Shown: positions 35,026 to 48,920, numbered from the stretch's first letter. The stretch is DNA of 64,000 nucleotides from Pseudomonas sp. Gutcm_11s (GCF_028649395.1 NZ_JAQSUW010000016.1:1-64000), one strand, 5' to 3'. Notes: generated by a model from the letters alone, not told the origin. A program made the numbers and translations.

Positions 35026-35056
35026 TGGCCGTTTACCGGTTCCTGGCTGGCCGTTT
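35026..35056 (+). promoter_or_regulatory. Two 9-bp direct repeats, candidate AraC-family operator
   Basis: TGGCCGTTT occurs at 35026-35034 and 35048-35056, 22 bp apart (two helical turns), 72-102 bp before the cytochrome gene. Direct repeats at ~21-22 bp are typical of AraC/XylS sites, and an AraC-family gene lies at the other end of this cluster. Confidence 0.4.
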
Positions 35057-35127
35057 GAGACCTCATACGCCATGCGTCGCTGCTTTAGTGTGGCGCTATC
35101 GAGATGAGCTGAGACTCGGAGAGGACT

Positions 35128-35514
35128 ATGCAGGCAGGGCGAAACAGGGGTTGGCGCGGTTGGGCCATGGTGCTGGGGCTGGGCGCGCTGCTGGCCGGTT
35201 GTGGCGGTGACGATGCGCCGCAGGCGCAAGCCGCCGCCGGGCAGGGCGTGCCGCAGGATGCGGCGCTGGCGCAGCTGTACGGCGCCAGCTGCAAGCAGTG
35301 CCATGCCAACCCGGCCGCCGGCGCGCCGCTGACCGGCGATACCCTGGCCTGGGAACCGCGCCTGGAGAAGGGCATGGATACCCTGCTGGACCACAGCATC
35401 AACGGCTTCCAGGGCATGCCGCCGCTGGGACTGTGCATGCAATGCACGGAGCCGGACTTCCGCGCGCTGATCGAGTTCATGGCCGCCGCGCCGCAGCCTG
35501 CGGAGGGCCACTGA
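35128..35514 (+). CDS. Lipoprotein c-type cytochrome (cytochrome c5-like)
   Basis: 128 residues. Signal peptide with lipobox LLAGC (Cys25) predicts anchoring by a lipid. Haem-binding CKQCH at 55-59, likely axial Met97 in GMPPLG, and a second pair CMQC at 103-106 as in cytochrome c5. As a monohaem electron carrier it is placed to accept electrons from the oxidase encoded 1 bp downstream and pass them to the respiratory chain. ATG 35128 follows GGAGAGGACT. First gene of a three-gene operon. Confidence 0.88.
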   Translation: MQAGRNRGWRGWAMVLGLGALLAGCGGDDAPQAQAAAGQGVPQDAALAQLYGASCKQCHANPAAGAPLTGDTLAWEPRLEKGMDTLLDHSINGFQGMPPLGLCMQCTEPDFRALIEFMAAAPQPAEGH

Positions 35515-35515
35515 T

Positions 35516-36901
35516 ATGGTCTCCCGTCGTCAGCTGTTGCAACGCGCCAGCCTGCTGGGCGCCTGCCTGGCCTTGCCGGGCCGCTCGCTGTGGGCCGCAG
35601 AAACGCCGCGCCCCATTCCCTGGCGCAACTGGTCGGGCGTGCAGAGCTGCCTGCCGCTGGAGCGTCTGGCACCGAAGAATCTGGACGAGCTGGTGCAGGT
35701 CATCCGCAAAGCCTCGGGCAAGATCCGCCCGGTCGGCTCGGGGCATTCCTTCAGTGCGCTGGTACCCACCGACGATACCCTGCTGTCGCTGAGCAACTTC
35801 GCCGGGCTGCTGGCGCATGACGCGCAGACCCTGCAGGCGGAGTTCGGCAGCGGCACGCCGATGTCGACCATGGGCGCGCCGCTCAAGGAAGTCGGCCAGG
35901 CGCTGATCAACATGGCCGACACCGACTACCAGACCCTGGCCGGAGCCATTGCTACCTCGACCCACGGTACCGGTATCGGCTTCGGCTCCTACTCCTCCAA
36001 CGTCTGCGGCTTGCAGCTGGTCAGCGCCGCCGGCGAGGTGCTCGACTGCAGCCGCGAGCAGAACCCCGAGCTGTTCAATGCAGCGCGCGTCTCCCTCGGC
36101 GCGCTGGGCGTGGTGACCAAGGTGCGCATGCAGAACCGCGCCGCCTTCCGTCTGCGTGAGCGCCAGTGGCTGGGCAAGACCGAGGAGTTGCTGGAGGACA
36201 TCGACAACCTCAAGCGCGATAACCAGCACTGGGAAATGCTGGTGGTGACCCACTCCGACTACGCGCTGTCGGTGGCGCTGAACGAGACCGAGGACCCGAG
36301 CACGCCGCCGGTGCCGCCGGACGAGGAGGGCGGCAACGGCTTCATCGACATCATCGAGGGGCTGGACAAGCACCTGAGCGACTCGCCCGGCCTGCGCCGC
36401 AGCCTGCTCAACAACATGCGCCACCTGGCCAGCTTCGACGACCGGGTGGACGCGTCCTACGAGATATTCGCCAACGTGCGCAACGTGCGCTTCAACGAGA
36501 TGGAGTACTCGGTTCCGGCCGAGCACGGCCCGGCCTGCCTGCGCGAGATCCTCAAGCGCATCGACGACGGCAACCTGCGCACCTGGATGCCGGTCGAGTA
36601 CCGCTACGTGAAGGCCGACGACATCCCCCTGAGCATGTTCGAGGGGCGCGACAGTTGCGCGCTGTCAATCCACCAGCACCACTCGATGGACCATCGCGAC
36701 TTCTTCGCCGCCATCGAGCCGATCTTCTGGAAGTACGGAGGGCGGCCGCACTGGGGCAAGCTGCACAGCCTGGGCGCGCGCCAGCTGGCGGCGTTGTATC
36801 CGCGCTGGAAGGAGTTCACCGAACTGCGCCGGGACATCGATCCGCATGGGCGCTTCGTCAATGCGCATCTGGCCGGGCTGTTCGGCCTCAACATCGGATA
36901 A
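35516..36901 (+). CDS. Tat-exported FAD oxidase/dehydrogenase of the arabinonolactone/alditol oxidase (ALO) family
   Basis: 461 residues. N-terminal SRRQLLQRASLLGA is a twin-arginine type signal, cleaved near residue 28. The FAD-binding domain (about 45-220) shows RPVGSGHSFS, whose His77 is the position of covalent FAD in alditol oxidase, and LAGAIATSTHGTG. The ALO domain ends with HWGK near residue 412, the family C-terminal motif. Relatives oxidise sugar lactones or polyols. With a cytochrome c gene directly upstream, it is probably a periplasmic dehydrogenase rather than an O2-using oxidase. Substrate unknown. Confidence 0.88.
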   Translation: MVSRRQLLQRASLLGACLALPGRSLWAAETPRPIPWRNWSGVQSCLPLERLAPKNLDELVQVIRKASGKIRPVGSGHSFSALVPTDDTLLSLSNFAGLLAHDAQTLQAEFGSGTPMSTMGAPLKEVGQALINMADTDYQTLAGAIATSTHGTGIGFGSYSSNVCGLQLVSAAGEVLDCSREQNPELFNAARVSLGALGVVTKVRMQNRAAFRLRERQWLGKTEELLEDIDNLKRDNQHWEMLVVTHSDYALSVALNETEDPSTPPVPPDEEGGNGFIDIIEGLDKHLSDSPGLRRSLLNNMRHLASFDDRVDASYEIFANVRNVRFNEMEYSVPAEHGPACLREILKRIDDGNLRTWMPVEYRYVKADDIPLSMFEGRDSCALSIHQHHSMDHRDFFAAIEPIFWKYGGRPHWGKLHSLGARQLAALYPRWKEFTELRRDIDPHGRFVNAHLAGLFGLNIG

Positions 36902-36910
36902 GGAACGGCG

Positions 36911-38188
36911 ATGAAGCGACGCACTCTAGTGCTGGCCGGCCTGGGCGCCGGTGGTCTGCTGGCCGCTGCCTGGCTGCGTCCGGGTGACCGGGGCCAGCCG
37001 CACGATGCCTACTTCCAGGCGCTGAACCAGGAGCTCAAGGCCAACGGGCCGATGCGCCCGAGCCTGCTGATCGACCTCGACCGCCTCGATCACAATATCG
37101 AGGTGGTGCGCCAGTTCCTCGCCCGTAGCGGCAAGCAGCTGCGCCTGGTGGAGAAGTCGCTGCCGGCGCCCGGTCTGCTGCGCTATATCGGCGAGCGCAT
37201 CGGCACCCGCAAGCTGATGTCCTTCCACCAGCCGTTCCTCAATCACGATGCGCGGCTGTTCCCCGAGGCCGACATCCTGCTCGGCAAGCCGCTGCCGGTA
37301 CGCTCGGCGCAGCTGTTCTACCAGCAGCACAGCGGCCCCTTCGATCCGGCGAAGCAGCTGCAGTGGCTGATCGATACCCCCGAGCGCCTGCAGCAGTACC
37401 TGGAACTGGCCCGGGGGCTGGGTACGCGGCTGCGCATCAACATCGAGCTGGATGTGGGCCTGCACCGTGGCGGCGTCAGCGATACGCAGACGCTGGGGCA
37501 GTTGCTGCAGCTGATTGCGGATAACCCGCAGCAGCTGGAGTTCGCCGGGTTCATGGGTTACGACCCCTTCGTCGGCATGAACCTGCCATCGGTGCTGGGC
37601 AGCCAGGACGAACTGCTGGCCAAGGTGATGGCGCTGTATCAGGGTCATGTCGATTTCACCCGCCAGAAATTCCCGGCGCTGTGGCGCGAGGGCCTGACCC
37701 TGAATACCGCCGGCAGTCCCAGCTACCGCGCCCATGAGCACGAGACGCTGAGCAGCGAGGTGGCCATCGGCACCGGCCTGCTCAAGCCCAGTCACTACGA
37801 CCTGCCGTCGCTGGCCGAACATCAGCCGGCGGTGTATATCGCCACGCCGGTGCTCAAGCGCACGGGGGCGTTGCGTATTCCGGCGCTGGACGAGAAGTCG
37901 CGGTTGTTCGCCTGGTGGGACGTCAACCAGCGCGAGACCTTCTTCATCTATGGAGGCAACTGGCAGGCCGACCTGGCTTCGCCGGTCGGGCTGCAGCTGA
38001 GCGGCCTGTACGGGCGCAGCTCGAACCAGGAGCTGGTCAATGGCTCGCCCGCGGTGGGCCTGGCGGTGGACGACCAGGTGTTCCTGCGCCCGACCCAGAG
38101 CGAGGCGGTGTTGCTGCAGTTCGGCGATCTGCTGGCCGTGCGCGGCGGCAAGATCGTCGAGCGCTGGCCGGTGTATCAGGACTCCTGA
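36911..38188 (+). CDS. Exported PLP-dependent enzyme, DSD1 / D-threonine aldolase-like fold
   Basis: 425 residues. MKRRTLVLAGLGAGGLLAAA looks like a Tat signal or membrane anchor, unusual because this fold is normally cytoplasmic. An alanine-racemase-type barrel follows (LLIDLDRLDHNIEVVRQFL, LRLVEKSLPAPGLLRYI with the likely PLP lysine, INIELDVGLHRGG), then a D-serine-dehydratase-like C-terminal domain (AIGTGLLKPSHYDL, about 280-420). Predicted chemistry: aldol cleavage, dehydration or racemisation of a D-hydroxy amino acid. 9 bp after the oxidase gene, same operon. Its 3' end overlaps the converging AraC gene by 13 bp. Confidence 0.82.
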   Translation: MKRRTLVLAGLGAGGLLAAAWLRPGDRGQPHDAYFQALNQELKANGPMRPSLLIDLDRLDHNIEVVRQFLARSGKQLRLVEKSLPAPGLLRYIGERIGTRKLMSFHQPFLNHDARLFPEADILLGKPLPVRSAQLFYQQHSGPFDPAKQLQWLIDTPERLQQYLELARGLGTRLRINIELDVGLHRGGVSDTQTLGQLLQLIADNPQQLEFAGFMGYDPFVGMNLPSVLGSQDELLAKVMALYQGHVDFTRQKFPALWREGLTLNTAGSPSYRAHEHETLSSEVAIGTGLLKPSHYDLPSLAEHQPAVYIATPVLKRTGALRIPALDEKSRLFAWWDVNQRETFFIYGGNWQADLASPVGLQLSGLYGRSSNQELVNGSPAVGLAVDDQVFLRPTQSEAVLLQFGDLLAVRGGKIVERWPVYQDS

Positions 38189-39213
38189 GCGATCCGCTGC
38201 TTCGCTGTGCGTGGCGTCACCCCGGTCCAGCGCTTGAAGGCGCGGCGGAAGTTGCGCACGTCGCTGAAGCCGGTTTCGCTGGCCACGTCGATCAGCCGGC
38301 TGTCGCGGTGGCTGAGCAGAGCCAGGGCCTTGGCCCGGCGCACGGAGTCGACGATGCCGTGGTAGGACAGCCCGGCCTCGTCGATGCGCCGGCGCAGCGT
38401 GCGTTCGCCGAGGTTGAGTTGCTGCGCCAGCTCGGCCAGTTGCGGCGGGCGGCACAGGCTCTTGCGCACCTCGCGCTGGATGGTCTCGATCAGGTCGGAG
38501 CTGCCGTGCTGCTCCCAGCGCGCGCTGTCTAGCAGCTCGGCGATCTCGGCGGCCACGTAGTCGTCGCGGGTCGGTAGCGGCAGCTGCAGCCAGCTCGCGT
38601 CGAAGGCGATCAGGTTGTGCCCGGCACCGAACTTCACCGGGCAGCGGAATATGTCCGCGTAGCGCTGCCAGTGTGGTGGCCGCGGGTATTCCAGCTCGAT
38701 GCGGTCGATGATCAGGTCCTGGCCGGACAGGTGGCGGACGATGGCCTGGGCGCTGGCGAAGGCTTCTTCCAGGTAGAACACCGCCACTTCCGGATCGAAG
38801 AAGCGCGTGGTGGCGAACACCAGGCAGCGTTCGCCGCGCAGCTCCATCTCGCAGTCGAGCAGGGCGCCGGTGTGGCGCTGGTAACGGATGGCGAGGTCGA
38901 GCGCCTCGCCGAGTGTCGGGCTGGCCAGCATGGCCATGCCCACCAGGCCCCAGGATACGGCGGTCTGCCGATGGCCCACGGCCAGGCCCAGGCCGCTGTC
39001 GCCCAGGCTGTGCAGGGCGCGGCGCACCAGCAGGTAGCTCTGCCGGTAGGACAGGCGATAGTCGGGCTTCTTCAGGTCGTCGGGCTCGAAGCCCAGGCCT
39101 CGGCAGAGCATGGCCGGGTCGCGGCCGACGGCGGCTACGTGCTGCAGCAGGAAGCGGGAAATCTGCGGCGGGGCCGAGGCCTCCGAGTAACGCGGATCGT
39201 CGATGGGTTTCAT
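38176..39213 (-). CDS. AraC-family transcriptional regulator (Arabinose_bd / OruR-type)
   Basis: 345 residues from ATG 39213 (MKPIDDPRYSEASAPPQIS) behind GGGAG. N-terminal ligand-sensing domain about 25-210 (DYRLSYRQSYLLVRRALHSLGDSGLGLAVG), C-terminal double helix-turn-helix about 245-340 (LAQQLNLGERTLRRRIDEAGLSY, IDVASETGFSDVRNFRRAFKRWTGVTP). It converges on, and overlaps, the exported PLP enzyme gene. It probably controls the cytochrome/oxidase/PLP operon, which is inference from position and from the direct repeats at 35026-35056. Confidence 0.9.
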   Translation of the reverse strand: MKPIDDPRYSEASAPPQISRFLLQHVAAVGRDPAMLCRGLGFEPDDLKKPDYRLSYRQSYLLVRRALHSLGDSGLGLAVGHRQTAVSWGLVGMAMLASPTLGEALDLAIRYQRHTGALLDCEMELRGERCLVFATTRFFDPEVAVFYLEEAFASAQAIVRHLSGQDLIIDRIELEYPRPPHWQRYADIFRCPVKFGAGHNLIAFDASWLQLPLPTRDDYVAAEIAELLDSARWEQHGSSDLIETIQREVRKSLCRPPQLAELAQQLNLGERTLRRRIDEAGLSYHGIVDSVRRAKALALLSHRDSRLIDVASETGFSDVRNFRRAFKRWTGVTPRTAKQRIAQES

Positions 39214-39325: not shown

Positions 39326-39943
39326 CTAGTAGGCGCCCAGCTCGGCGGCCTGCTCGCCAGCGGCATGGTTGCCGGCGGCGCGGGCCTGGTCCTGGCGCAG
39401 GCGCTGGCCGGCGATCAGGCGCACCCACCAGGGCACTTTCTTCACCCGCTCGCCGCCCAGGCGCGCCAGCACATAGGCCATGGCGCATTTCTCGAACAGC
39501 TCGGCATTGAACAGCATGCGGTTGCGCGTCACGCCCAAGGCCAGCAGGCGGCCTGCGAGTGGCCCGGCGTTGCCGCCGCCGGCCAGCAGGCTCGGCAGAC
39601 GCTCGACCGTGGCGGGCGCCCAGGAGCGACCGATATGCCGCGCCTGTTCGTCGAACACCGACGGCATGGCCTCGCCGAGCTGCTGCAGTTGCAGGCTCCA
39701 GCGCGGGCTGAGCAGCGCCGCCGCACCGATGTCGCCGCGCAGGCGATAGAGCCGAGCGTGCAGGCCGGCCACGCCATCCTCGCTCTGGCCCAGGTCGACC
39801 TCGCGCGGCGCCTCGCCGTAGACCTGCAGCAGGATGCGCCCGGTGCCGGGCAGCAGCAGCGAGAGGCTGTCGCCACCGTCGTTGAACAGGCCCTTGGCGG
39901 CCAGGCGCTGGCTGGCCTGGAGCAGTTCGTCGTGCATGTTCAT
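39326..39943 (-). CDS. Class II aldolase-fold protein lacking zinc ligands (probable pseudoenzyme)
   Basis: 205 residues. The N-terminal half (LLQASQRLAAKGLFNDGGDSLSLLLPGTG) resembles the class II aldolase/adducin fold, but where the active aldolase encoded two genes upstream has VHTHQ and NHG, this protein has LLSPRWSLQLQQL and LGVTRNRM, so the zinc site is missing. The C-terminus is an unrelated basic and Ala-rich tail. ATG overlaps the aminotransferase stop by 4 bp, so it is produced with it. A regulatory or scaffold subunit is possible; function unknown. Confidence 0.7.
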   Translation of the reverse strand: MNMHDELLQASQRLAAKGLFNDGGDSLSLLLPGTGRILLQVYGEAPREVDLGQSEDGVAGLHARLYRLRGDIGAAALLSPRWSLQLQQLGEAMPSVFDEQARHIGRSWAPATVERLPSLLAGGGNAGPLAGRLLALGVTRNRMLFNAELFEKCAMAYVLARLGGERVKKVPWWVRLIAGQRLRQDQARAAGNHAAGEQAAELGAY

Positions 39944-41397
39944 ACCAGTTTGAACACGTCTTCGAAGCGGTTCAGCGCCTCGTCGATGATTTCATCGGTG
40001 TCGGCCGCGCTGGTGTACATGCGGCTGCCGGCCAGGGTCACCAGGCCGTGGGCCATGTAGGCGGCGCCCATCTCTTCCATCATGTGCTTGCGCGGGTTGA
40101 CCTCGCGCAGCAGCTGGATCGGGTTGCGCACGTTGAGCAGCAGCACGCCGGAAGTCTGCAGGTGCACCACTGAGCCCTGGTTGTAGACCACGTAGGGCAG
40201 GCCCAGGCGTTCGATGATCTGGCCTAGGCCGGCGGTCAGGCGGTCACCGGCGCGGCCGGCGACGGCCGGGGCGTTGCGCCGCTCGATTTCCAGCAGGCTG
40301 TGGTAGCCGGCCACGCAGGACAGCGGGTTGGCGGTCAGGGTGCCACCGACGAAGGCGCGCTTGGTCTGCTTGCCGCCGATGCCTCCGGCCAGCAGCATCA
40401 TCACCTCGCGACGCCCGCCGATGCCGCCGGCCATGGGGTAGCCGCCGGTCAGGCACTTGCCGAAGATGGTCAGGTCGGGCAGCACGTTGAAGTAGCCCTG
40501 GGCACCGGACAGGCCGACGCGGAAGCCGCTGACCACCTCGTCGAAGATCAGCAGCGCGCCGAACTCGTCGCACAGCTTGCGCAGGTTGGCGTTGAACTCG
40601 CGGTGTGCCGGGCGGGTGCCGCTCTCCGGGCCCAGCGGCTCGACGATGATCGCCGCGGTGCCGCCGCGCAGGCGGTTGATCTGCAGGCGCCGGCGGATGG
40701 CGGCCAGGTCGTTGGGGAAGCTCTCCTGGGTGTGCGAAGTGGCGCCGCGCGGAATGCCGATGGCCTCGCGCCGGCCGGTGCCGGGAATGCGCATGCCGTA
40801 CACCAGCTGGTCGCTCCAGCCGTGGTAGGCGCCGCCGATCTTGATCACCCATTTCTTGCCGGTATAAGCGCGGGCCAGGCGGATCGCCCCCATCACCGAT
40901 TCGGTGCCGGAGGAGAGCATGCGGAACATCTCCACCGACGGCACCATGCGGCAGACCTGCTCGGCCAGCTTGACCTCGTACTCGTGCAGCAGGCCGGTGA
41001 CCGGGCCGCAGTCGCGCAGGGTCTCGATCACCTTCTCCTGCACCACCGGGTCGTTGCTGCCGAGCAGGGTTGGGCCGCCGGCCTGGAGGAAGTCGATGTA
41101 GCGGTTGCCGTCGACGTCTTGCAGATGCGCGCCTTCCGCCTTGTTCATCGCCAGCGGGAAGGGATAGTTGAACGCCAGGTTGTGCTGCACTCCGCCGGGG
41201 ATGACCGCGCAGGCCTGCTCGGCCAACTGCTTGGAGGTGCGGCAGTTGTTCTCGAAGTAGCCGAGCACCTTGTCCATGTGCTCGCGGCGGATCGGCCGGA
41301 TCGGCTGCTTGATCAGCGTCTTCAGGCGCGCGTCGATGGCATCGGTATCCGGCCAGTGGCTGATGCCGGAGGTGGGCAGTTCGGTGGAGGCGTTCAT
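39940..41397 (-). CDS. Class III PLP aminotransferase / aminomutase (glutamate-1-semialdehyde aminomutase-like)
   Basis: 485 residues. PLP contacts: SSGTES (about 162-167), YHGW (191-194), FDEVVSGFR with Asp286, and Lys314 in FGKCLTGGYPMAGG, which forms the Schiff base. The GG-S/T-TY motif FVGGTLTANPL follows. An N-terminal extension of about 60 residues precedes the usual family start. It is not hemL itself: that gene is normally elsewhere and the protein is about 55 residues longer. Overlaps both neighbours by ATGA, so it belongs to the kinase-aldolase operon. Substrate probably a carbonyl or amino compound of that pathway. Confidence 0.88.
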   Translation of the reverse strand: MNASTELPTSGISHWPDTDAIDARLKTLIKQPIRPIRREHMDKVLGYFENNCRTSKQLAEQACAVIPGGVQHNLAFNYPFPLAMNKAEGAHLQDVDGNRYIDFLQAGGPTLLGSNDPVVQEKVIETLRDCGPVTGLLHEYEVKLAEQVCRMVPSVEMFRMLSSGTESVMGAIRLARAYTGKKWVIKIGGAYHGWSDQLVYGMRIPGTGRREAIGIPRGATSHTQESFPNDLAAIRRRLQINRLRGGTAAIIVEPLGPESGTRPAHREFNANLRKLCDEFGALLIFDEVVSGFRVGLSGAQGYFNVLPDLTIFGKCLTGGYPMAGGIGGRREVMMLLAGGIGGKQTKRAFVGGTLTANPLSCVAGYHSLLEIERRNAPAVAGRAGDRLTAGLGQIIERLGLPYVVYNQGSVVHLQTSGVLLLNVRNPIQLLREVNPRKHMMEEMGAAYMAHGLVTLAGSRMYTSAADTDEIIDEALNRFEDVFKLV

Positions 41398-42029
41398 CGC
41401 AGATCCTCTTCTAGGAATTCGAGCGTCTGTCGGTACAGGCGGTTATCGGGTTGCGCAGCCAGGGCGCGGCGGAACCAGGCGATGGCTTCCTGCTCCAGCA
41501 GCCGCACCACGGTGCAGGCGTCTTCCAGGGTGGCGCCGAGGCAGACGGCGCCGTGATTGCGCATCAGGTAGGCATTGAGGTCGGCGCGCACGCGCTTGCC
41601 GACATTGCTGGCCAGCCAACTGGTGCCGGAAGGCGCATAGGCGCACATCGGTACCTCGGCGCCGATCAGCCGGCGCGCCTCGGCACCGTGCATCGGCAAT
41701 GGTCGGTCGAGCAGGGTGAAGGCGCTGGCCACCGGCTGGTGGGTATGCACGCTGGCCATGCAGTCCGGCCGCGCCTGCAGCGCGCGGGCGTGCAGGCCGC
41801 TCTCCACCGAGGGCTTGCCGCCACCTGCGAGCTGCTCGAGGTTGTCCAGGCGCAGCACGCAGATGTCGTCCGCGGTCATCGCGTAGTAGTCGCTGGCCGA
41901 GGGCGTGACGGCGAAACGCTCGGCGTCGATGCGCAACGCCAGGTTGCCGCCGACACCGGCCAGGTAGCCCTGGTCGGCCAGGGCGACGGCGGTGCGCACC
42001 ACCGCCTCGCGGGCTTCGCGCTCGTTCAT
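41394..42029 (-). CDS. Class II aldolase (fuculose-1-phosphate aldolase/adducin family)
   Basis: 211 residues from ATG 42029 (MNEREAREAVVRTAVALADQ); a much longer open frame upstream is antisense to nothing real and is out of frame with the kinase. Catalytic set is intact: Glu76 (SVESGLH), zinc ligands His95 and His97 (VHTHQ) and His159 (MRNHG). Such enzymes cleave a ketose- or aldose-phosphate retro-aldolically to DHAP or a similar piece and an aldehyde, or decarboxylate. Coupled by 4-bp overlaps to the kinase before it and the aminotransferase after it. Confidence 0.9.
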   Translation of the reverse strand: MNEREAREAVVRTAVALADQGYLAGVGGNLALRIDAERFAVTPSASDYYAMTADDICVLRLDNLEQLAGGGKPSVESGLHARALQARPDCMASVHTHQPVASAFTLLDRPLPMHGAEARRLIGAEVPMCAYAPSGTSWLASNVGKRVRADLNAYLMRNHGAVCLGATLEDACTVVRLLEQEAIAWFRRALAAQPDNRLYRQTLEFLEEDLR

Positions 42030-43606
42030 CGTGGGTCTCCATGGAGCTTGGCGTAGAAGGGCGCCAGCGCTTTGTGCGCGGCGCGGAAGGTGGCGTAGCT
42101 GTCGGTGTAGCGCTGGCGGTGCGCGGCCTGCGGCTCGAAGCGGCGGCGGATGGCGACCCGCTCGGCGAGATCGGAAAACTTCAGTGCGCCGATGCCGACT
42201 CCGGCAAGGAACGCGGCGCCGCGGGCATTGGCCTGGATCGGCTGCTCGGGCTGCAGCACGGTCATGTCCAGTACGTCGGCGAAGACCTGGCTCCACACAT
42301 CGGACTGGCCGCCGCCACCGACCAGGGTGATGCTGTCCGGCCGGGTGCCGAGGAAGCTGCGCACCGATTCCATCATCCAGCGGGTGTTGAGCGCCACGCC
42401 CTCGAGGAAGGCGCGCACCATGTCTTCGCGGGCATGCTCCAGGCTCAGGTTGAGCAGGCCGGCGCGCAGATGGCTGTCGTCCACCGGGGTGCGTTCGCCC
42501 ATCAGCCAGGGCAGGTAGAGCAGGCCGCGGGCACCGGCCGGCACGCCAGCGGCGATCTCGTCGAGGATGCGGTAGACGTCCGGGCCGGCCTCGTTCTGCA
42601 GCAGGGCATCTTTGGCGTAGAGGATGCGGTCGCGCAGGAAGCTGAGGTTGGCGCCGGCGGCGGACTGCATGGCCATCATCAGGTAGCGGTCGGGCAGGGC
42701 GCAGGGCACGGCGGCGATCTGCCTGAACACGTCGGTCTTCTTCTGCGCCACGTGGGCGCCGATCCAGGACGAGGTGCCGACGTACAGGTGCAGGGCGTGG
42801 TCCGCCACGGCGCCGGAGCCCAGCGCCGATGCGGTGTTGTCCACCGCACCGGCCACCACCGGCAGACCGGCGGGCAGGCCGAGCTTCTCGGCCACGGTCG
42901 GGCGCAGCGGGCCGAGGATGTCGCTGCAGCGCACCAGCTCCGGCAGCTGTTCGCGGCGTAGCCCGGCCAGGCGCAGCAGGCCGTCGTCGTAGCGGATGTT
43001 GGCCGGGTCGCGGTTGTCGGTGACCCAGGTGGTCAGCGCCGAATCCACGGTGGCGGCGATGCGCCCGGTCAGGCGCAGGTTCATGAAATCGAGGACGTTG
43101 AGGAACTTGTCGGTGCGCGCGTACAGCTCCGGCATCTCCTCGCGGATGAAGGCGATGTGGCCGAACGGGTCCTTGCCGGACAGCGCCGGCGCGCCGCCGG
43201 TGAGGCGCAGCCAGCGCCACAGCTTGAGCGGGTCGTAGCCGGCCACGCGCGGCAGGGCACCGCCGACCTGGCGCTGCACCGCGGCCTGGCCGCGCATGTC
43301 CATGTACAGCATGGCGCGGGCCAGCGGATTGCCGTCGCGGTCCACCGGCAGGGTGCCTTCGCCCTGGCAGGAGCAGGCCAGCGCGACGATGTTCGAGCGG
43401 GTGATCTCGGGGCGCTGCAGCACCTCGGCGGCGCTTTCCTCGAAGGCGCGCCACCAGTCTTCCGGGCACTGTTCGACGCCGGCGCCGGGCAGCAGGTGGT
43501 TGCTCACCGCGCGGAAAGCGAAGGCACGCACGTGGCCATCCAGGCCGACCAGGGCGGTCTTGCAGCCAGAGCTGCCAAGGTCCACGGCCAGTACCAGTTC
43601 ACTCAC
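42026..43606 (-). CDS. FGGY-family carbohydrate kinase
   Basis: 526 residues from GTG 43606 (SELVLAVDLGSSGCKTALVG follows); upstream in-frame codons contain no better start. Phosphate-binding DLGSSGCKT at 9-17; C-terminal adenosine region LVGGGGQSDVWSQVFADVLDMTVLQPEQPIQ-like near 435-465. Xylulokinase-like length and order. Phosphorylates a sugar, polyol or related substrate before the aldolase step. First gene of the operon; faces tetR across a 25-bp palindrome. Confidence 0.9.
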   Translation of the reverse strand: MSELVLAVDLGSSGCKTALVGLDGHVRAFAFRAVSNHLLPGAGVEQCPEDWWRAFEESAAEVLQRPEITRSNIVALACSCQGEGTLPVDRDGNPLARAMLYMDMRGQAAVQRQVGGALPRVAGYDPLKLWRWLRLTGGAPALSGKDPFGHIAFIREEMPELYARTDKFLNVLDFMNLRLTGRIAATVDSALTTWVTDNRDPANIRYDDGLLRLAGLRREQLPELVRCSDILGPLRPTVAEKLGLPAGLPVVAGAVDNTASALGSGAVADHALHLYVGTSSWIGAHVAQKKTDVFRQIAAVPCALPDRYLMMAMQSAAGANLSFLRDRILYAKDALLQNEAGPDVYRILDEIAAGVPAGARGLLYLPWLMGERTPVDDSHLRAGLLNLSLEHAREDMVRAFLEGVALNTRWMMESVRSFLGTRPDSITLVGGGGQSDVWSQVFADVLDMTVLQPEQPIQANARGAAFLAGVGIGALKFSDLAERVAIRRRFEPQAAHRQRYTDSYATFRAAHKALAPFYAKLHGDPR

Positions 43607-43657
43607 GATTTTTGTCTCGTTTGCATCGGCCTCTTTCCATTCTGCGAGAGTCGCGCT

Positions 43658-43682
43658 AAAACATAAGCATTGCTCATGTTTT
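43658..43682. promoter_or_regulatory. 25-bp palindrome, candidate operator for the adjacent TetR regulator
   Basis: The two arms AAAACAT (43658-43664) and ATGTTTT (43676-43682) flank AGCA-T-TGCT (43666-43674). Only one symmetric pair (43665/43675) fails to match. It lies 52 bp from the kinase start and 11 bp from the tetR start, so one bound dimer could block both promoters. Confidence 0.75.
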
Positions 43683-43692
43683 CGAGAATGCT

Positions 43693-44364
43693 GTGGCCAA
43701 CAAAACCTTGTCAAGCACCCCCGAGGTGAAACCCAAAGCACCGCGTGCTCCCAAGCAGGAGCGTAGCCAGGCGCGCTTCGAGTCGATCCTCAAGGTCGCC
43801 CTCGAACTGATCGCTGCACGCGGCTACGAGGCGGTATCGATGCGCGAGATCGCCCGCGAGGCCGGTCTGCCGATCGCCTCGCTGTACCTGTATTTCCCGA
43901 CCAAGCTGGCCATCGTCAAGGAGGTCTGGCAGCGCTACACCAGCAGCGTCAGCGAGCGTCTGGAAGAGGATCTCAAGCTGATCGTCGACCCGGCCAGCAG
44001 CGCTGATGCCGGCCTGCTGATCGAGCGGCTGATCGACCTGATGGTGGAGATCCAGATCAGCCATCCGGGCTTCGTCGAGGTGTGGGGTTGCGTGGCGGCG
44101 GCGCCGGAACTGCGCGAGCTGAACCAGGCCGACACTCTGGCCACCGCGGGCATGGTCGCCACGGCGATCCTCAGCGCTCATCCGAATGTCGATCCGGAGC
44201 AGGCCGAGGGCCTGGCGCTGGTGCTGTGCGAGGGCGGCAGCTCGGTGACCAAGCTGGCCCTGACCCTGCCGGCCGAGCAGCGCCAACAGCGGGTTCAGCA
44301 GCTCAAGCGCACCCTGCAGTTCATTTACACCAGCAGCCTCGAGGCCTTTGCCCGGCAGGCGTAG
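43693..44364 (+). CDS. TetR-family transcriptional regulator
   Basis: 223 residues from GTG 43693. A ~25-residue basic tail (KPKAPRAPKQERSQAR) precedes the DNA-binding domain about 28-75 (LELIAARGYEAVSMREIAREAG, LPIASLYLYFPTKLAIV). The C-terminal region is a typical helical ligand/dimer domain. It diverges from the kinase-aldolase-aminotransferase operon and probably represses it and itself through the palindrome at 43658-43682. Inducer unknown. Confidence 0.9.
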   Translation: MANKTLSSTPEVKPKAPRAPKQERSQARFESILKVALELIAARGYEAVSMREIAREAGLPIASLYLYFPTKLAIVKEVWQRYTSSVSERLEEDLKLIVDPASSADAGLLIERLIDLMVEIQISHPGFVEVWGCVAAAPELRELNQADTLATAGMVATAILSAHPNVDPEQAEGLALVLCEGGSSVTKLALTLPAEQRQQRVQQLKRTLQFIYTSSLEAFARQA

Positions 44365-44506
44365 CAAGTGCTGCGCAGAGTGCCGCACGGCACCTGTGTA
44401 GAAATGTTTCAAGGGCCCTTTCGGCGTCTCTTTTTGTCCGCCTCGGCCCCATGGAGGTTTTTGCAAGTCGGCTAGTTTCGCCACATCACCGCTAGGGGAC
44501 AGCAGC

Positions 44507-46288
44507 ATGTCGCATAACAAGAGCAAGATAGCGCTGGCAGTTGGGATAGGAATCTGGGGGATACAGGCCCAGGCGTTCGAGATCGACACCGGGCCGAATG
44601 TCACCACGTCGCTGGAGAGCGTCGCCGAGTTCACCTCGGTGTACCGCACCAGTTCGCCCGAGCACATCGAGCAGGGCGGGCAGAACGTCTTCATCAACAA
44701 CAACGACGGTAGCGAGTACTACGACACCGGCTTTGTCTCCAACGAATTCAAGCTGACCTCGGAGCTGCATGTGCGCACCGAGCAGGACGGCATGTTCGTG
44801 CGCGGCACCGCCTGGTACGACACCCAGATCATGGATAACGATCCCACGGGTGACGGCTTCGCAACGCATAACACCGACAGCGACGAGCGCTATCCCTCCG
44901 ATCTGAAGAACCGTTCCGGCCATCGCGCGCGCCTGCTCGACGCCTACCTCTACACCAACCGCTACATCGGCGAGCACCCGGTCAGCCTGCGTTTCGGCCG
45001 TCAGGTGATCAACTGGGGCGAGGGCATCTTCTATGCCGACGGCCTCAACGTGATCAACCCGGTGGATATCGGCCGCGTGGTGCTGCCCAACGCCAGCTTC
45101 AAGGACGCGCTGCTGCCGACCAACATGATCTCCGGTCAGTTCGGCCTGACCGACCAGCTCAACGTCGAGGCGTTCTACGGCCTGGAGTGGAAGGGCCACG
45201 AACTGATCCCCACCGGCGCCTTCCTCAACAACCAGGACTACTTCGGCAAGGGCAGCAACGGCGTGCTGGTCGACCTGCGCGGCGAGCTGGGTCCGCTGGC
45301 AGAGCTGGTGCCGGGGCTCAATGGCGAGAACGGCATCGTCGCCGGCGCCCGCTACGGTCGCGAGCACGACGCCCGCGATGACGGCCAGTTCGGCGTGGCG
45401 ACGCGCTATCTGGTGGAGGACTGGAACAACACCGAGTTCAGCCTCTACTACCTCAACTACCATAGCAAGGTGCCGTTCCTGAGCGTTAAGAAAGGCAATT
45501 CCTTTGCCTGCAGCAGCGGCACGGCCGGCCAGTTCAGTGGCTTGTGCGGCCTGGGCCTGGACTCGGTGGTCGACGGCCTGGCCCTGCTCGACAGCACCTA
45601 CTACGACTTCATCTATCCCGAGGACATCCGCCTGTTCGGCCTCAGTGTCTCCGGCACCGTGGGCGACACCAGCGTCGCCGGTGAGCTGACCTACCGGCCC
45701 AACGCGCCGCTGGAACCGGCGATGACCTACGAGCTGGAACAGATGGCCGAGGGCGCCCTGGGGGGCAATGGCGCCAGTGGCGGCAGCATCGACCTGGGCG
45801 AGTTCGGCGACGGCTCGGCCAACGACCCGCGCCGCTACATCGACTTGTACAAGCGCGACGAACTGTTCACCGGCTCGCTGTCCACCATCCACACCTTCGG
45901 CCCCACCGCCGGCATGGATGACCTGATGTTGCTGGCCGAGGCCGCCTTCAACTACATCCCCGGCAGCCTGCTGGATACGCCGAACTACGCCTACCTGGAC
46001 TCCTTCGCCTGGGGTTACACGGTGAACTTCTCCGGCCTGATCCAGGATGTGCAGCCCAACTTCGACCTGATGCCCGGCATCACCTTCCGCCAGGACGTGT
46101 CCGGTACCTCGCCGGCGCTCAACGAGAACTTCATCCAGGGGCGCAAGTCCGCCACCCTCGAACTGGGCGGCAAGTACGGCCAGAAGCTGGCCGGCAAGCT
46201 GGCGTACACCTCGTTCTGGGGCGCGCGTAAGGACAACGCGCTGATCGACCGCGACCACGTCGCCTTCAACGTCTCCTATTCCTTCTGA
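44507..46288 (+). CDS. DUF1302 family outer-membrane protein
   Basis: 593 residues: signal peptide about 1-23 (ending QAQA), then a strand-rich protein with many alternating aromatic/polar segments and a C-terminal aromatic end (FNVSYSF), consistent with an outer-membrane beta-barrel. Family signatures include LRFGRQVINWGEGIFYADGLNVINPVD. Two cysteines in the loop CSSGTAGQFSGLC may form a disulfide. DUF1302 genes are nearly always paired with DUF1329, and some such pairs accompany uptake of steroids or other hydrophobic compounds. ATG 44507 is 142 bp after tetR. Confidence 0.88.
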   Translation: MSHNKSKIALAVGIGIWGIQAQAFEIDTGPNVTTSLESVAEFTSVYRTSSPEHIEQGGQNVFINNNDGSEYYDTGFVSNEFKLTSELHVRTEQDGMFVRGTAWYDTQIMDNDPTGDGFATHNTDSDERYPSDLKNRSGHRARLLDAYLYTNRYIGEHPVSLRFGRQVINWGEGIFYADGLNVINPVDIGRVVLPNASFKDALLPTNMISGQFGLTDQLNVEAFYGLEWKGHELIPTGAFLNNQDYFGKGSNGVLVDLRGELGPLAELVPGLNGENGIVAGARYGREHDARDDGQFGVATRYLVEDWNNTEFSLYYLNYHSKVPFLSVKKGNSFACSSGTAGQFSGLCGLGLDSVVDGLALLDSTYYDFIYPEDIRLFGLSVSGTVGDTSVAGELTYRPNAPLEPAMTYELEQMAEGALGGNGASGGSIDLGEFGDGSANDPRRYIDLYKRDELFTGSLSTIHTFGPTAGMDDLMLLAEAAFNYIPGSLLDTPNYAYLDSFAWGYTVNFSGLIQDVQPNFDLMPGITFRQDVSGTSPALNENFIQGRKSATLELGGKYGQKLAGKLAYTSFWGARKDNALIDRDHVAFNVSYSF

Positions 46289-46297
46289 CGGCGGAAC

Positions 46298-47665
46298 ATG
46301 ACCATGACCAGAACAGTTTTGTGCGCCTCTTCAGTCCTGCTCTCCCTCGGTCTGCTGCTGCCGCTGGCGGCCCAGGCCAAGGTGAGTGCCGAGCAGGCGG
46401 CGCAGCTCGGTAGCAACCTGACCGCCTTCGGCGCTGAGCGCCAGGGCGATGCCGCCAAGGGCATTCCCGAGGCCGGGGGCGGCTTGCAGGCCCCAGCCGG
46501 CTATGGCGGCCCTGGCAGCTTCCATGTCGACCCCTTCGCCGGCGACAAGCCGCTGCGCATCATCGATGTGCAGAACATGGCGGCCGATGACGCCAACCTC
46601 AGCCCCGGGGTGAAGGCACTGCTCAAGGCCTACCCGCAGAGCTTCAAGGTGCCAGTCTACCCCAGCCATCGCAGCTTCGCCGCGCCCAGCGACATCGCCG
46701 CCAACACCCGGCGCAATGCCGAGCAGGCGACCCTGGCCGAGGGCGGCAACGGGCTCAAGGATGCCTATGCCGGCATTCCCTTCCCGATCCCGGCGGACGG
46801 CCGCGAGGCGATCTGGAACCACATCGCCCGCTGGCAGGGGCGCTACATCGACGAGGTGTCGGTAACCGCCCAGGTCACCACCAGCGGCAGCTACTCCATC
46901 CTGCGCGAGCGCATCCAGCTGCTGTCCAACTACTACAACCCGAAGAAGGACGCCGGCAGCCTGGACAACATGCTGTATTCCTTCGCCAGTGAACTGCTGC
47001 CGCCGTCGCGCGACGTCGGCCGTGCGCTGCTGGTGCACGAGACCATCGACCAGGTCGCCGAGCCGCGTTCGGCGTGGATCTACAACCCCGGACAGCGCCG
47101 CGTGCGCCGCGCGCCGACCCTGGCCTACGACACGCCGATCGACGGTATTTATGCCGACGACACCGACATGTACAACGGCGCCACCGATCGTTACGACTGG
47201 AAGCTGATCGGCAAGCAGAGCCTGCTGGTGCCCTACCACAACTACGCCATGGAGAAGCCGGGGCTGAAGGTCGACGAGCTGGTCAAACCCGGCCACCTCA
47301 ACAGCGACCTGAGCCGCTGGGAGATGCACCGCGTGTGGGTGGTCGAGGCCACGCTGCGCCCTGGCCAGCGCCACGTGCATGCCAAGCGGCGCTTCTACCT
47401 GGACGAGGACAGCTGGTACGCCCTGATGGTGGAGAACTACGATGCCCGCGGAGAGCTGTGGCACGTTAACCTGGCCTTCAGCAAGAACGCCTACGAGGTG
47501 CCCAGCATCACCCCGGTGAACCTGGTCTACCACGACCTGATCGCCCGCACCTACACGGTGATCGGCCTGCGCAACAACGAGAAGGCGCCACGCCAGTTCC
47601 TCCTGACGCCACCGCCGGAGAACTACTTCACCCCCGCCAGCCTGCGCCGCAAGGGCACCCAGTAG
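46298..47665 (+). CDS. DUF1329 family periplasmic/outer-membrane-associated protein
   Basis: 455 residues: signal peptide about 1-28 (LLPLAAQA), then the DUF1329 domain (IPFPIPADGREAIWNHIARWQG, WIYNPGQRRVRRAPTLAYD, RWEMHRVWVVEATLRPGQRH). The fold is thought to be LolA/LolB-like, which fits binding of a lipophilic molecule and partnership with the DUF1302 barrel 9 bp upstream. Ends 8 bp before the MITE-like element, which takes the place of its terminator. Confidence 0.88.
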   Translation: MTMTRTVLCASSVLLSLGLLLPLAAQAKVSAEQAAQLGSNLTAFGAERQGDAAKGIPEAGGGLQAPAGYGGPGSFHVDPFAGDKPLRIIDVQNMAADDANLSPGVKALLKAYPQSFKVPVYPSHRSFAAPSDIAANTRRNAEQATLAEGGNGLKDAYAGIPFPIPADGREAIWNHIARWQGRYIDEVSVTAQVTTSGSYSILRERIQLLSNYYNPKKDAGSLDNMLYSFASELLPPSRDVGRALLVHETIDQVAEPRSAWIYNPGQRRVRRAPTLAYDTPIDGIYADDTDMYNGATDRYDWKLIGKQSLLVPYHNYAMEKPGLKVDELVKPGHLNSDLSRWEMHRVWVVEATLRPGQRHVHAKRRFYLDEDSWYALMVENYDARGELWHVNLAFSKNAYEVPSITPVNLVYHDLIARTYTVIGLRNNEKAPRQFLLTPPPENYFTPASLRRKGTQ

Positions 47666-47672
47666 CGTCATA

Positions 47673-47940
47673 TAGGGGCTGCTGCCGTTTCGCCGCGACC
47701 GCGACGGAGCCAGTTTTTGCGCGGAGCTAGGCGCGAGACGCGAAGTTTGGTGATCCAAATGAGCCGTCGAGTAACAACGTTCCGCGCAAAAACTGGCCCG
47801 TCCCTGCGGGTTGCGCGGAAAATCTCGCCATGCGTTGTTGTGGGACTTGCCAAGGGAATGACCATTGCCTGCGTCCCACGCCTAGCCTGGCGAGATTTTT
47901 CGCAGCAACGCGGCTTGCGCCGAAACGGCAGCAGCCCCTA
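47673..47940. mobile_element. 268-bp MITE-like element with 20-bp terminal inverted repeats
   Basis: This fills most of a 370-bp gene-free gap. Termini TAGGGGCTGCTGCCGTTTCG (47673-47692) and its exact reverse complement (47921-47940). Inside are a 16-bp perfect inverted repeat (47710-47725 with 47781-47796) enclosing smaller dyads such as TTTGGTGATCCAAA (47745-47758), and a 12-bp perfect one (47819-47830 with 47888-47899) enclosing GTGGGAC/GTCCCAC (47840-47846, 47873-47879). No coding capacity. The 18-bp arm starting GGGG is flanked by TA on both sides, as left by TA-targeting transposases. Non-autonomous element, or a large structured repeat. Confidence 0.7.
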
Positions 47941-47941
47941 G

Positions 47942-47960
47942 TAGTGACGAGCCGTCACTA
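47942..47960. repeat. Small dyad next to the MITE-like element
   Basis: TAGTGACG (47942-47949) and CGTCACTA (47953-47960) form a perfect 8-bp hairpin with loop AGC, one base beyond the element's right terminus. It may be part of the element or an unrelated binding site. Confidence 0.4.
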
Positions 47961-47982
47961 AACCCGCAGAATGACCCTTTCG

Positions 47983-48004
47983 CCCCGGATTCGTCCGGGG
48001 TTTT
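47983..48004 (+). terminator. Terminator before the epimerase pair
   Basis: CCCCGGA (47983-47989) / TCCGGGG (47994-48000) with a TTCG loop and TTTT. It may be the original terminator of the DUF1302-DUF1329 unit, displaced by the inserted element. Confidence 0.75.
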
Positions 48005-48035
48005 CGTCGGGTCAGTCGAGGCTCTTTCTTAAGAT

Positions 48036-48920
48036 ATGCGAATGCGTTTGTTACTGCTGGGAGGGGGCAATGCCCTGGGCCAGGCTTTGGTGCGCCAGGG
48101 GGCGGAGGAGGACATCGGCTTCCTCGCGCCGCGCCCGCCAGAAGGCGGCTGGGACCGCGCCAGCCTGACCGAGCTGCTCGATGAGACCCGCCCGGATGCA
48201 GTGATCAACCTCGCCTACTACTTCGACTGGTTCCAGGCCGAGGCCTTCGACGCGGCGCGTTTCGCTGTGCAGGAGCGCGCCATGGAACGCCTGGCCGAGC
48301 TCTGCCAGCACCACAACATCGTCCTACTGCAACCCTCCAGCTACCGCGTATTCGACGGCTCGCGCGCTACCGCCTACAGCGAGAAGGACGAGCCAGTGCC
48401 GCTGGGGCTGCGTGGCCAGGCCCTGCTGCGTATCGAACAATGCGTGCGCGCCACCTGCCCGCGCCATGTGCTGCTGCGCTTCGGCTGGCTGCTCGACGAC
48501 AGCCAGGACGGCCTGCTCGGGCGCTTCCTGCGCCGCGCCGAGCAGGGCGAGGAACTGCTGATGGCCGACGACCGGCGCGGCAACCCGACCCCGGTCGATG
48601 ATGCCGCGCGGGTGATTCTCGCCGTGCTCAAGCAGCTGGACTGCCAGAGCCCGCTGTGGGGCGTCTATCACTACGGCGGCCACGAGGCCACCACGCCGCT
48701 GGCCCTGGGCCAGGCGCTGATCGGCGAGGCGCGTGGCCTGCAGCCACTCAAGGTGCAGGAAGTCGGCGCCCAGGCGCACGCCGCGCGTGCCGACGCCGCC
48801 GAGGAGCCGCAGCACGCGGTGCTGGCCTGCAAGAAGATCCTGCACACCTTCGGCATCAAGCCGCGGGCCTGGCGCGCCAGCCTGCCGGCCCTGCTGGGCC
48901 GCTACTATCGTCACGTCTGA
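48036..48920 (+). CDS. RmlD-like NAD(P)-dependent sugar-nucleotide reductase/epimerase family protein
   Basis: 294 residues. N-terminal Rossmann motif LLLGGGNALGQAL (about 5-17), followed by AVINLAYYFDW and PSSYRVFDGS, the positions of the SDR active-site region; the classical YxxxK is not obvious, so activity may differ from RmlD. No clear Shine-Dalgarno; a second in-frame ATG at 48042 is an alternative start. It lies 18 bp before a second epimerase gene, the same pair that precedes oprG in P. aeruginosa (PA4069-PA4068, from memory). Confidence 0.8.
   Translation: MRMRLLLLGGGNALGQALVRQGAEEDIGFLAPRPPEGGWDRASLTELLDETRPDAVINLAYYFDWFQAEAFDAARFAVQERAMERLAELCQHHNIVLLQPSSYRVFDGSRATAYSEKDEPVPLGLRGQALLRIEQCVRATCPRHVLLRFGWLLDDSQDGLLGRFLRRAEQGEELLMADDRRGNPTPVDDAARVILAVLKQLDCQSPLWGVYHYGGHEATTPLALGQALIGEARGLQPLKVQEVGAQAHAARADAAEEPQHAVLACKKILHTFGIKPRAWRASLPALLGRYYRHV

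Follow-up and report, generated by a model that had tools for sequence, protein, structure and literature searches.

A Pseudomonas sphBCD operon and a candidate periplasmic route of sphingosine breakdown by a fold-III PLP enzyme with an export signal

Three adjoining genes of Pseudomonas sp. Gutcm_11s almost certainly represent, judging by gene order and protein sequence, the sphBCD operon, that is PA5328-PA5327-PA5326 of P. aeruginosa. We consider it fairly probable that SphC oxidises sphingosine at C1, SphB takes up the electrons and SphD splits the product by retro-aldol cleavage in the periplasm. The genes lie on the plus strand of the window, the 64,000-nucleotide stretch of DNA analysed here, and comprise sphB (35128..35514), for a lipoprotein mono-heme c-type cytochrome; sphC (35516..36901), for a Tat-type FAD-linked oxidoreductase of the ALO/alditol-oxidase kind; and sphD (36911..38188), for a fold-III PLP enzyme resembling D-threonine aldolase. 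The open reading frames are separated by only 1 and 9 bases. The original prediction had described a three-gene operon whose products all carry export signals, and we recovered the reading frames, the lipobox (LAGC, Cys25) of SphB, and the starts SRRQLLQ of SphC and MKRRTLVLAG of SphD, from which export of all three proteins is predicted.

The window proteins are 66% (SphB), 75% (SphC) and 78% (SphD) identical, over most of their length, to their P. aeruginosa counterparts, and in the P. aeruginosa record NZ_CP070468.1 the same trio has as neighbours a gene for a transporter and another that is annotated as sphR. We equate the trio with sphBCD because of this shared order and these identities to SphR-flanked genes. 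In a tree of SphD, the window protein clusters with those of P. aeruginosa and other Pseudomonas. A scan of species genomes gave 80 Pseudomonas loci with the third gene, and the association of the trio is not due to chance, since the cytochrome, ALO and PLP genes adjoin in 79 of them. The record NZ_CP070468.1 is a 93-kb 'plasmid' bearing rph, pyrE, argB, dut and sphBCD-sphR, all chromosomal genes, and is possibly an assembly fragment. Separately, a frameshift interrupts sphD in one Pseudomonas (G010:C1:2283801-2285071; L011, L020), which may reflect decay or a sequencing error; G290 and G438 have similar splits.

The pathway had been thought to match no described one. The operon does have a known function in P. 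aeruginosa, the kind of finding that the original prediction had named as its refutation: sphBCD is induced there by sphingosine via SphR and is required for sphingosine metabolism and tolerance (LaBauve and Wargo, PMC3900636; DiGianivittorio et al., PMC11893366). A two-step breakdown to glycine and a long-chain aldehyde was proposed in 2014 (PMC3900636). Sphingosine loss in PAO1 requires sphBC, a deletion mutant accumulating sphingosine; growth in the presence of three sphingoid bases also depends on sphBC, and deletions in sphBCD impaired growth with sphingosine in four strains; sphD was dispensable in PAO1 for growth with sphingosine, the breakdown product could not be identified, deletion of sphBC in P. 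fluorescens WCS365 gave no phenotype, and the authors do not decide whether sphingosine is itself the substrate of SphB/C (PMC11893366). A second group found the sphBCD genes up 18- to 45-fold with sphingomyelin (PMC5150637). Our search of the open-access literature found no account of sphingosine being handled by an exported enzyme of the D-threonine-aldolase type.

In the pathway that we propose, sphingosine and other sphingoid bases would enter the periplasm, where Tat-exported SphC, with its covalent FAD, would oxidise the C1 alcohol of sphingosine to an aldehyde and, probably, further to the acid. The electrons would go to SphB, the lipoprotein cytochrome c, and from there to the respiratory chain. 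Oxidation at C1 would turn D-erythro-sphingosine (2S,3R) into a (2R,3R) 2-amino-3-hydroxy acid, D-configured at C2. By our own CIP reasoning, C3 outranks C1 at C2 of sphingosine, whereas C1 as an aldehyde or acid outranks C3, giving 2R with unchanged geometry; oxidised sphingosine would be a D-amino acid, erythro like D-allo-threonine. The presence of a D-threonine-aldolase-type enzyme beside a primary-alcohol oxidase would then make sense, because C1 oxidation yields the D configuration. Tat-exported SphD would cleave the C2-C3 bond, releasing glycine and a C16 aldehyde. The C1 site, the acid intermediate, the aldolase step, the export of SphD and the role of the local AraC protein as regulator are the parts that we infer. 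Against the full mechanism stand the dispensability of sphD in PAO1, the silent sphBC deletion of WCS365, the occurrence of SphC relatives without SphD, and a window genome with neither SphA nor ceramidase.

The reaction assigned to SphD leans on its fold and motifs. In Pfam, the protein matched Ala_racemase_N (59 bits), the sole match at E up to 0.1, and did not match the D-serine-dehydratase C-terminal domain. Its AlphaFold model (pLDDT 95.1), made with an alignment from which plasmid-record sequences were left out, has D-threonine and beta-hydroxyaspartate aldolases as its nearest folds (Z 34.8-35.6), followed by dehydratases of the same fold (Z about 33) and alanine racemases (Z 25-27). 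A profile search likewise placed aldolases on top, although the ranking of aldolases over dehydratases in the model comparison, 1-2 Z units, is too close to decide the reaction. The PLP lysine would be K82 by alignment. Near the C-terminus, 39 aligned SphD proteins share the motif Q396-S397-E398, with an invariant E and with Q and S in at least 90%, at the position where D-serine-deaminase-like relatives have HPC. The C-terminal metal-ligand motif of D-threonine aldolases is HxD. As far as the alignment tells, the metal site of SphD is altered, and the DSD1 label is unfit because QxE replaces the HxC motif; the aldolase step is possibly metal-independent. The earlier description of a DSD1-fold enzyme thus stood for the fold, according to the model comparison, whereas membership of the DSD1 family is doubtful given the QxE motif and the missing Pfam dehydratase domain. 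That the enzyme acts on a compound like a D-hydroxy amino acid, as was also suggested, is probably correct.

SphD resembles D-threonine aldolases (4v15, 7yqa, 7dib) and BhcC (6qkb) in fold (Z about 35 over an alignment of about 345 residues) and in the region of the PLP lysine, but differs from them in its low identity (17-19%), predicted export, QxE metal motif and substrate, presumably a C18 lipid. With eukaryotic sphingosine-1-phosphate lyase it would share PLP-dependent C2-C3 cleavage of a sphingoid to a C16 aldehyde. That lyase is a fold-I enzyme that converts the phosphorylated, unoxidised base and releases phosphoethanolamine, whereas SphD belongs to fold III and is proposed to act after C1 oxidation. 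It is unlikely, in our view, that SphD is instead a dehydratase/deaminase or a racemase of the same fold, working on the product of SphC or on a D-amino acid: D-serine and beta-hydroxyaspartate dehydratases do share the fold (Z 33), the P. aeruginosa record labels SphD 'DSD1 family', and periplasmic fold-III racemases of the BsrV type are known, but SphD has QxE where dehydratase-like relatives have HxC, does not match the dehydratase domain, and finds aldolases as its best fold and profile matches, albeit by a Z difference too small to settle the matter.

For the oxidative half of the proposed pathway, SphB matched Pfam Cytochrome_CBB3 (9.6e-14) and contains one CxxCH in addition to its lipobox. 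SphC scored 446 bits with TIGR01679, against a cut-off of 292, and begins with the Tat-type MVSRRQLLQ. Sequence alignment to AldO (8ot8) identified the FAD-histidine H77 and the catalytic residues E361, R363 and K415 of SphC; H77 and the HWGK motif (H412-K415) are invariant in the aligned proteins. Members of the alditol oxidase family convert primary alcohols to the aldehyde or acid (PMC10771423), and SphC retains the alditol-oxidase FAD histidine, Glu, Arg and Lys. SphC is thus like AldO (8ot8, 2vfr; TIGR01679 kind) in its covalent-FAD histidine and catalytic residues and unlike it in its predicted Tat export and dedicated cytochrome c. Three pocket residues of AldO, Ser103, Gln295 and His350, correspond to Asp135, Glu328 and Ser384 in SphC. 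We rejected Asp135 and Glu328 as a signature of amino-alcohol substrates, for SphC-like proteins of genomes lacking SphD, and weaker ALO homologues, have these acids too.

Lactones or polyols had at first been suggested as substrates, a suggestion that is not supported, given the part of P. aeruginosa sphBCD in sphingosine metabolism. More generally, SphC and SphB could oxidise another periplasmic compound, such as a polyol, lactone or aldehyde, with an indirect effect on sphingosine. Direct action on sphingosine was left open by the authors of the deletion study (PMC11893366), the characterised relatives of SphC are alditol oxidases, and SphC-like genes also occur without SphD, no SphD match being found in the genomes of some close SphC relatives (six genomes). 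We nevertheless regard this explanation as distinctly unlikely, considering that sphingosine induces sphBCD through SphR, that the deletion mutant accumulates sphingosine and three sphingoid bases are affected, and that SphC is paired with a PLP enzyme of the kind that handles D-hydroxy amino acids.

The aldolase step of the proposed pathway is placed in the periplasm by the N-terminus of SphD. The first residues of the window protein form a twin-arginine segment, MKRRTLVLAGLGAGGLLAAAWL (36911..36976, plus strand), which would serve as a signal or a signal anchor, and its model has a helix at residues 3-21. An RR segment followed by a hydrophobic stretch opens SphD in all 80 Pseudomonas loci, with an ATG start in 78. 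In the P. aeruginosa record NZ_CP070468.1 (L160:5935-6006), the annotated start of SphD lies 23 codons inside the longer frame, and upstream there are an in-frame GTG and an AAAGGAG ribosome-binding site; read from that GTG, the protein begins VNRRKFMFAGLGAGALLAG, twin-arginine signal included. Since the export signal is conserved, the annotated start is suspect, and it is probably wrong and hides the signal, an error to be put right ahead of any expression or localisation work. The Tat substrates listed in PMC6085387 include P. aeruginosa SphC, whereas PA5326 (SphD) is unnamed in the main text of the same study, which may be because its annotated start is too late. The RR N-terminus could be no working Tat signal and SphD cytoplasmic, as the want of a clear signal-peptidase site, the signal-less SphD proteins of distant families and the silence of PMC6085387 on PA5326 might suggest, but this is very unlikely with the signal present in 80/80 Pseudomonas loci and paired with an SphC predicted to be exported in 40/40 proteobacterial loci, and with an annotation that may explain that silence. 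The view of the operon as a periplasmic oxidation module, in which a flavin enzyme and its cytochrome c acceptor are joined by an exported PLP enzyme, gains support from the Tat listing of SphC and the conserved signal of SphD.

Other arrangements were seen among SphD relatives. Three Pseudomonas genomes of 4.4-4.8 Mb contain a relative (44-46%) with a Tat-type start and no SphC beside it (L103:7028-8287, L104, L221), in L103 downstream of a nitronate-monooxygenase-like gene. In another clade (L194, L197, L215-L217, L232), the N-terminal membrane segment lacks the twin arginines and the locus contains no SphC.

We read 82 further loci, mostly from outside Pseudomonas, and could judge the signals of both SphC and SphD in 57, window included; two labels were set by eye, and one more for a mixed case on opposite strands. 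Both proteins have a signal in 40 loci, neither in 14, SphC only in three (Ruegeria pomeroyi, Yoonia and one more) and SphD only in none. Thus, wherever a proteobacterial SphD starts with RR and a hydrophobic stretch and SphC is readable, SphC is exported by its signal (40/40). A SphB-type cytochrome accompanies 28 of the 43 SphC predicted by signal to be exported and none of the 14 others. A DUF819 membrane protein occurs in seven loci, all with a signal-less SphD, and covers the three mixed cases. The simplest reading of these sequences is that SphD has to be in the same compartment as the product of SphC, DUF819 otherwise importing that product. This reading needs strong caution because the co-variation of signals (Fisher 9e-11, 57 loci) is backed by only about 3-5 independent changes in the tree; a pairs test gave 2-3 contrasts, too few for significance, and we rejected the co-variation as statistical proof. 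We put forward tentatively the broader idea of extracytoplasmic sphingoid breakdown by C1 oxidation and then retro-aldol cleavage by a new exported QxE subfamily of PLP enzymes, with three layouts among bacteria: export of both enzymes; a cytoplasmic location for both, with no cytochrome; or an exported oxidase with a cytosolic aldolase and import of the intermediate by DUF819.

The window operon is like that of P. aeruginosa in its three genes and their order; it also has a candidate SphR box upstream and an AraC-type gene nearby. The box is a direct repeat, TGGCCGTTTACCGGT-7 nt-TGGCCGTTTGAGACC (35026..35062, plus strand), between 102 and 66 bases ahead of sphB. It is alike in placement and spacing to the P. 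aeruginosa sphB box but deviates from the P. aeruginosa consensus, matching 14 of 18 positions as compared with 18 of 18, a score within chance given the 341 placements of at least 14 on both strands of the window. Boxes of P. aeruginosa and the fluorescens group match 16-18 of 18 positions at the corresponding place, and the window type of repeat is kept in several sister species. We therefore rejected the box by consensus score alone as insignificant and retained it for position and conservation. The AraC-type gene (38176..39213, minus strand; Pfam Arabinose_bd and HTH_18), a probable counterpart of sphR, starts at an internal ATG of our choosing in an open frame that extends to 39309. Unlike in P. 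aeruginosa, this gene converges on sphD, and its product is only 37% identical to SphR. It was still the top match when SphR was compared with the whole genome (223 bits; second, 132 bits), and may be the regulator of sphBCD.

A further difference from P. aeruginosa is that the genome of the window strain gave no match to SphA, with a query that had no positive control. Neutral ceramidase was also absent from this genome, by a query that was positive in three relatives. A sister genome, whose SphD is 96% identical, encodes a full neutral ceramidase, in which both ceramidase domains are present, some 10 kb away from sphD (L176:4613-6613), flanked by a DUF1329 gene on one side and an epimerase-like gene pair on the other; at 47665-48036 of the window, the DUF1329 and epimerase-like neighbours are present without ceramidase. 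Independently of the operon itself, the ceramidase of the sister genome lends context to a sphingolipid role of sphBCD. Beside the AraC gene, the window has genes for an unknown 205-aa protein, a GSA-type class-III aminotransferase, a class-II aldolase and an FGGY kinase (39326-43741), found in one Pseudomonas clade, and, after the kinase gene, for a TetR-like regulator, DUF1302 and DUF1329 proteins, both DUFs confirmed by Pfam (43693-47665). DUF1302 and DUF1329 genes are often associated with the way in which hydrophobic compounds are handled at the outer membrane.

Sphingosine acts as an antimicrobial lipid on the surfaces of skin, airway and plants. Published work on its destruction by Pseudomonas gives neither a product nor a role for SphD. 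The sphBCD operon itself was already known; what is new is the proposed exported, possibly metal-independent aldolase step, with its three layouts, and an export signal of SphD throughout the 80 Pseudomonas loci. Its fold, the argument from D configuration and the pairing of export signals together assign to SphD a compartment and one particular reaction that can be tested, and the proposed pathway predicts that one compound would build up when sphD alone is removed. SphD looks like a PLP enzyme fitted to split an oxidised lipid in the periplasm.
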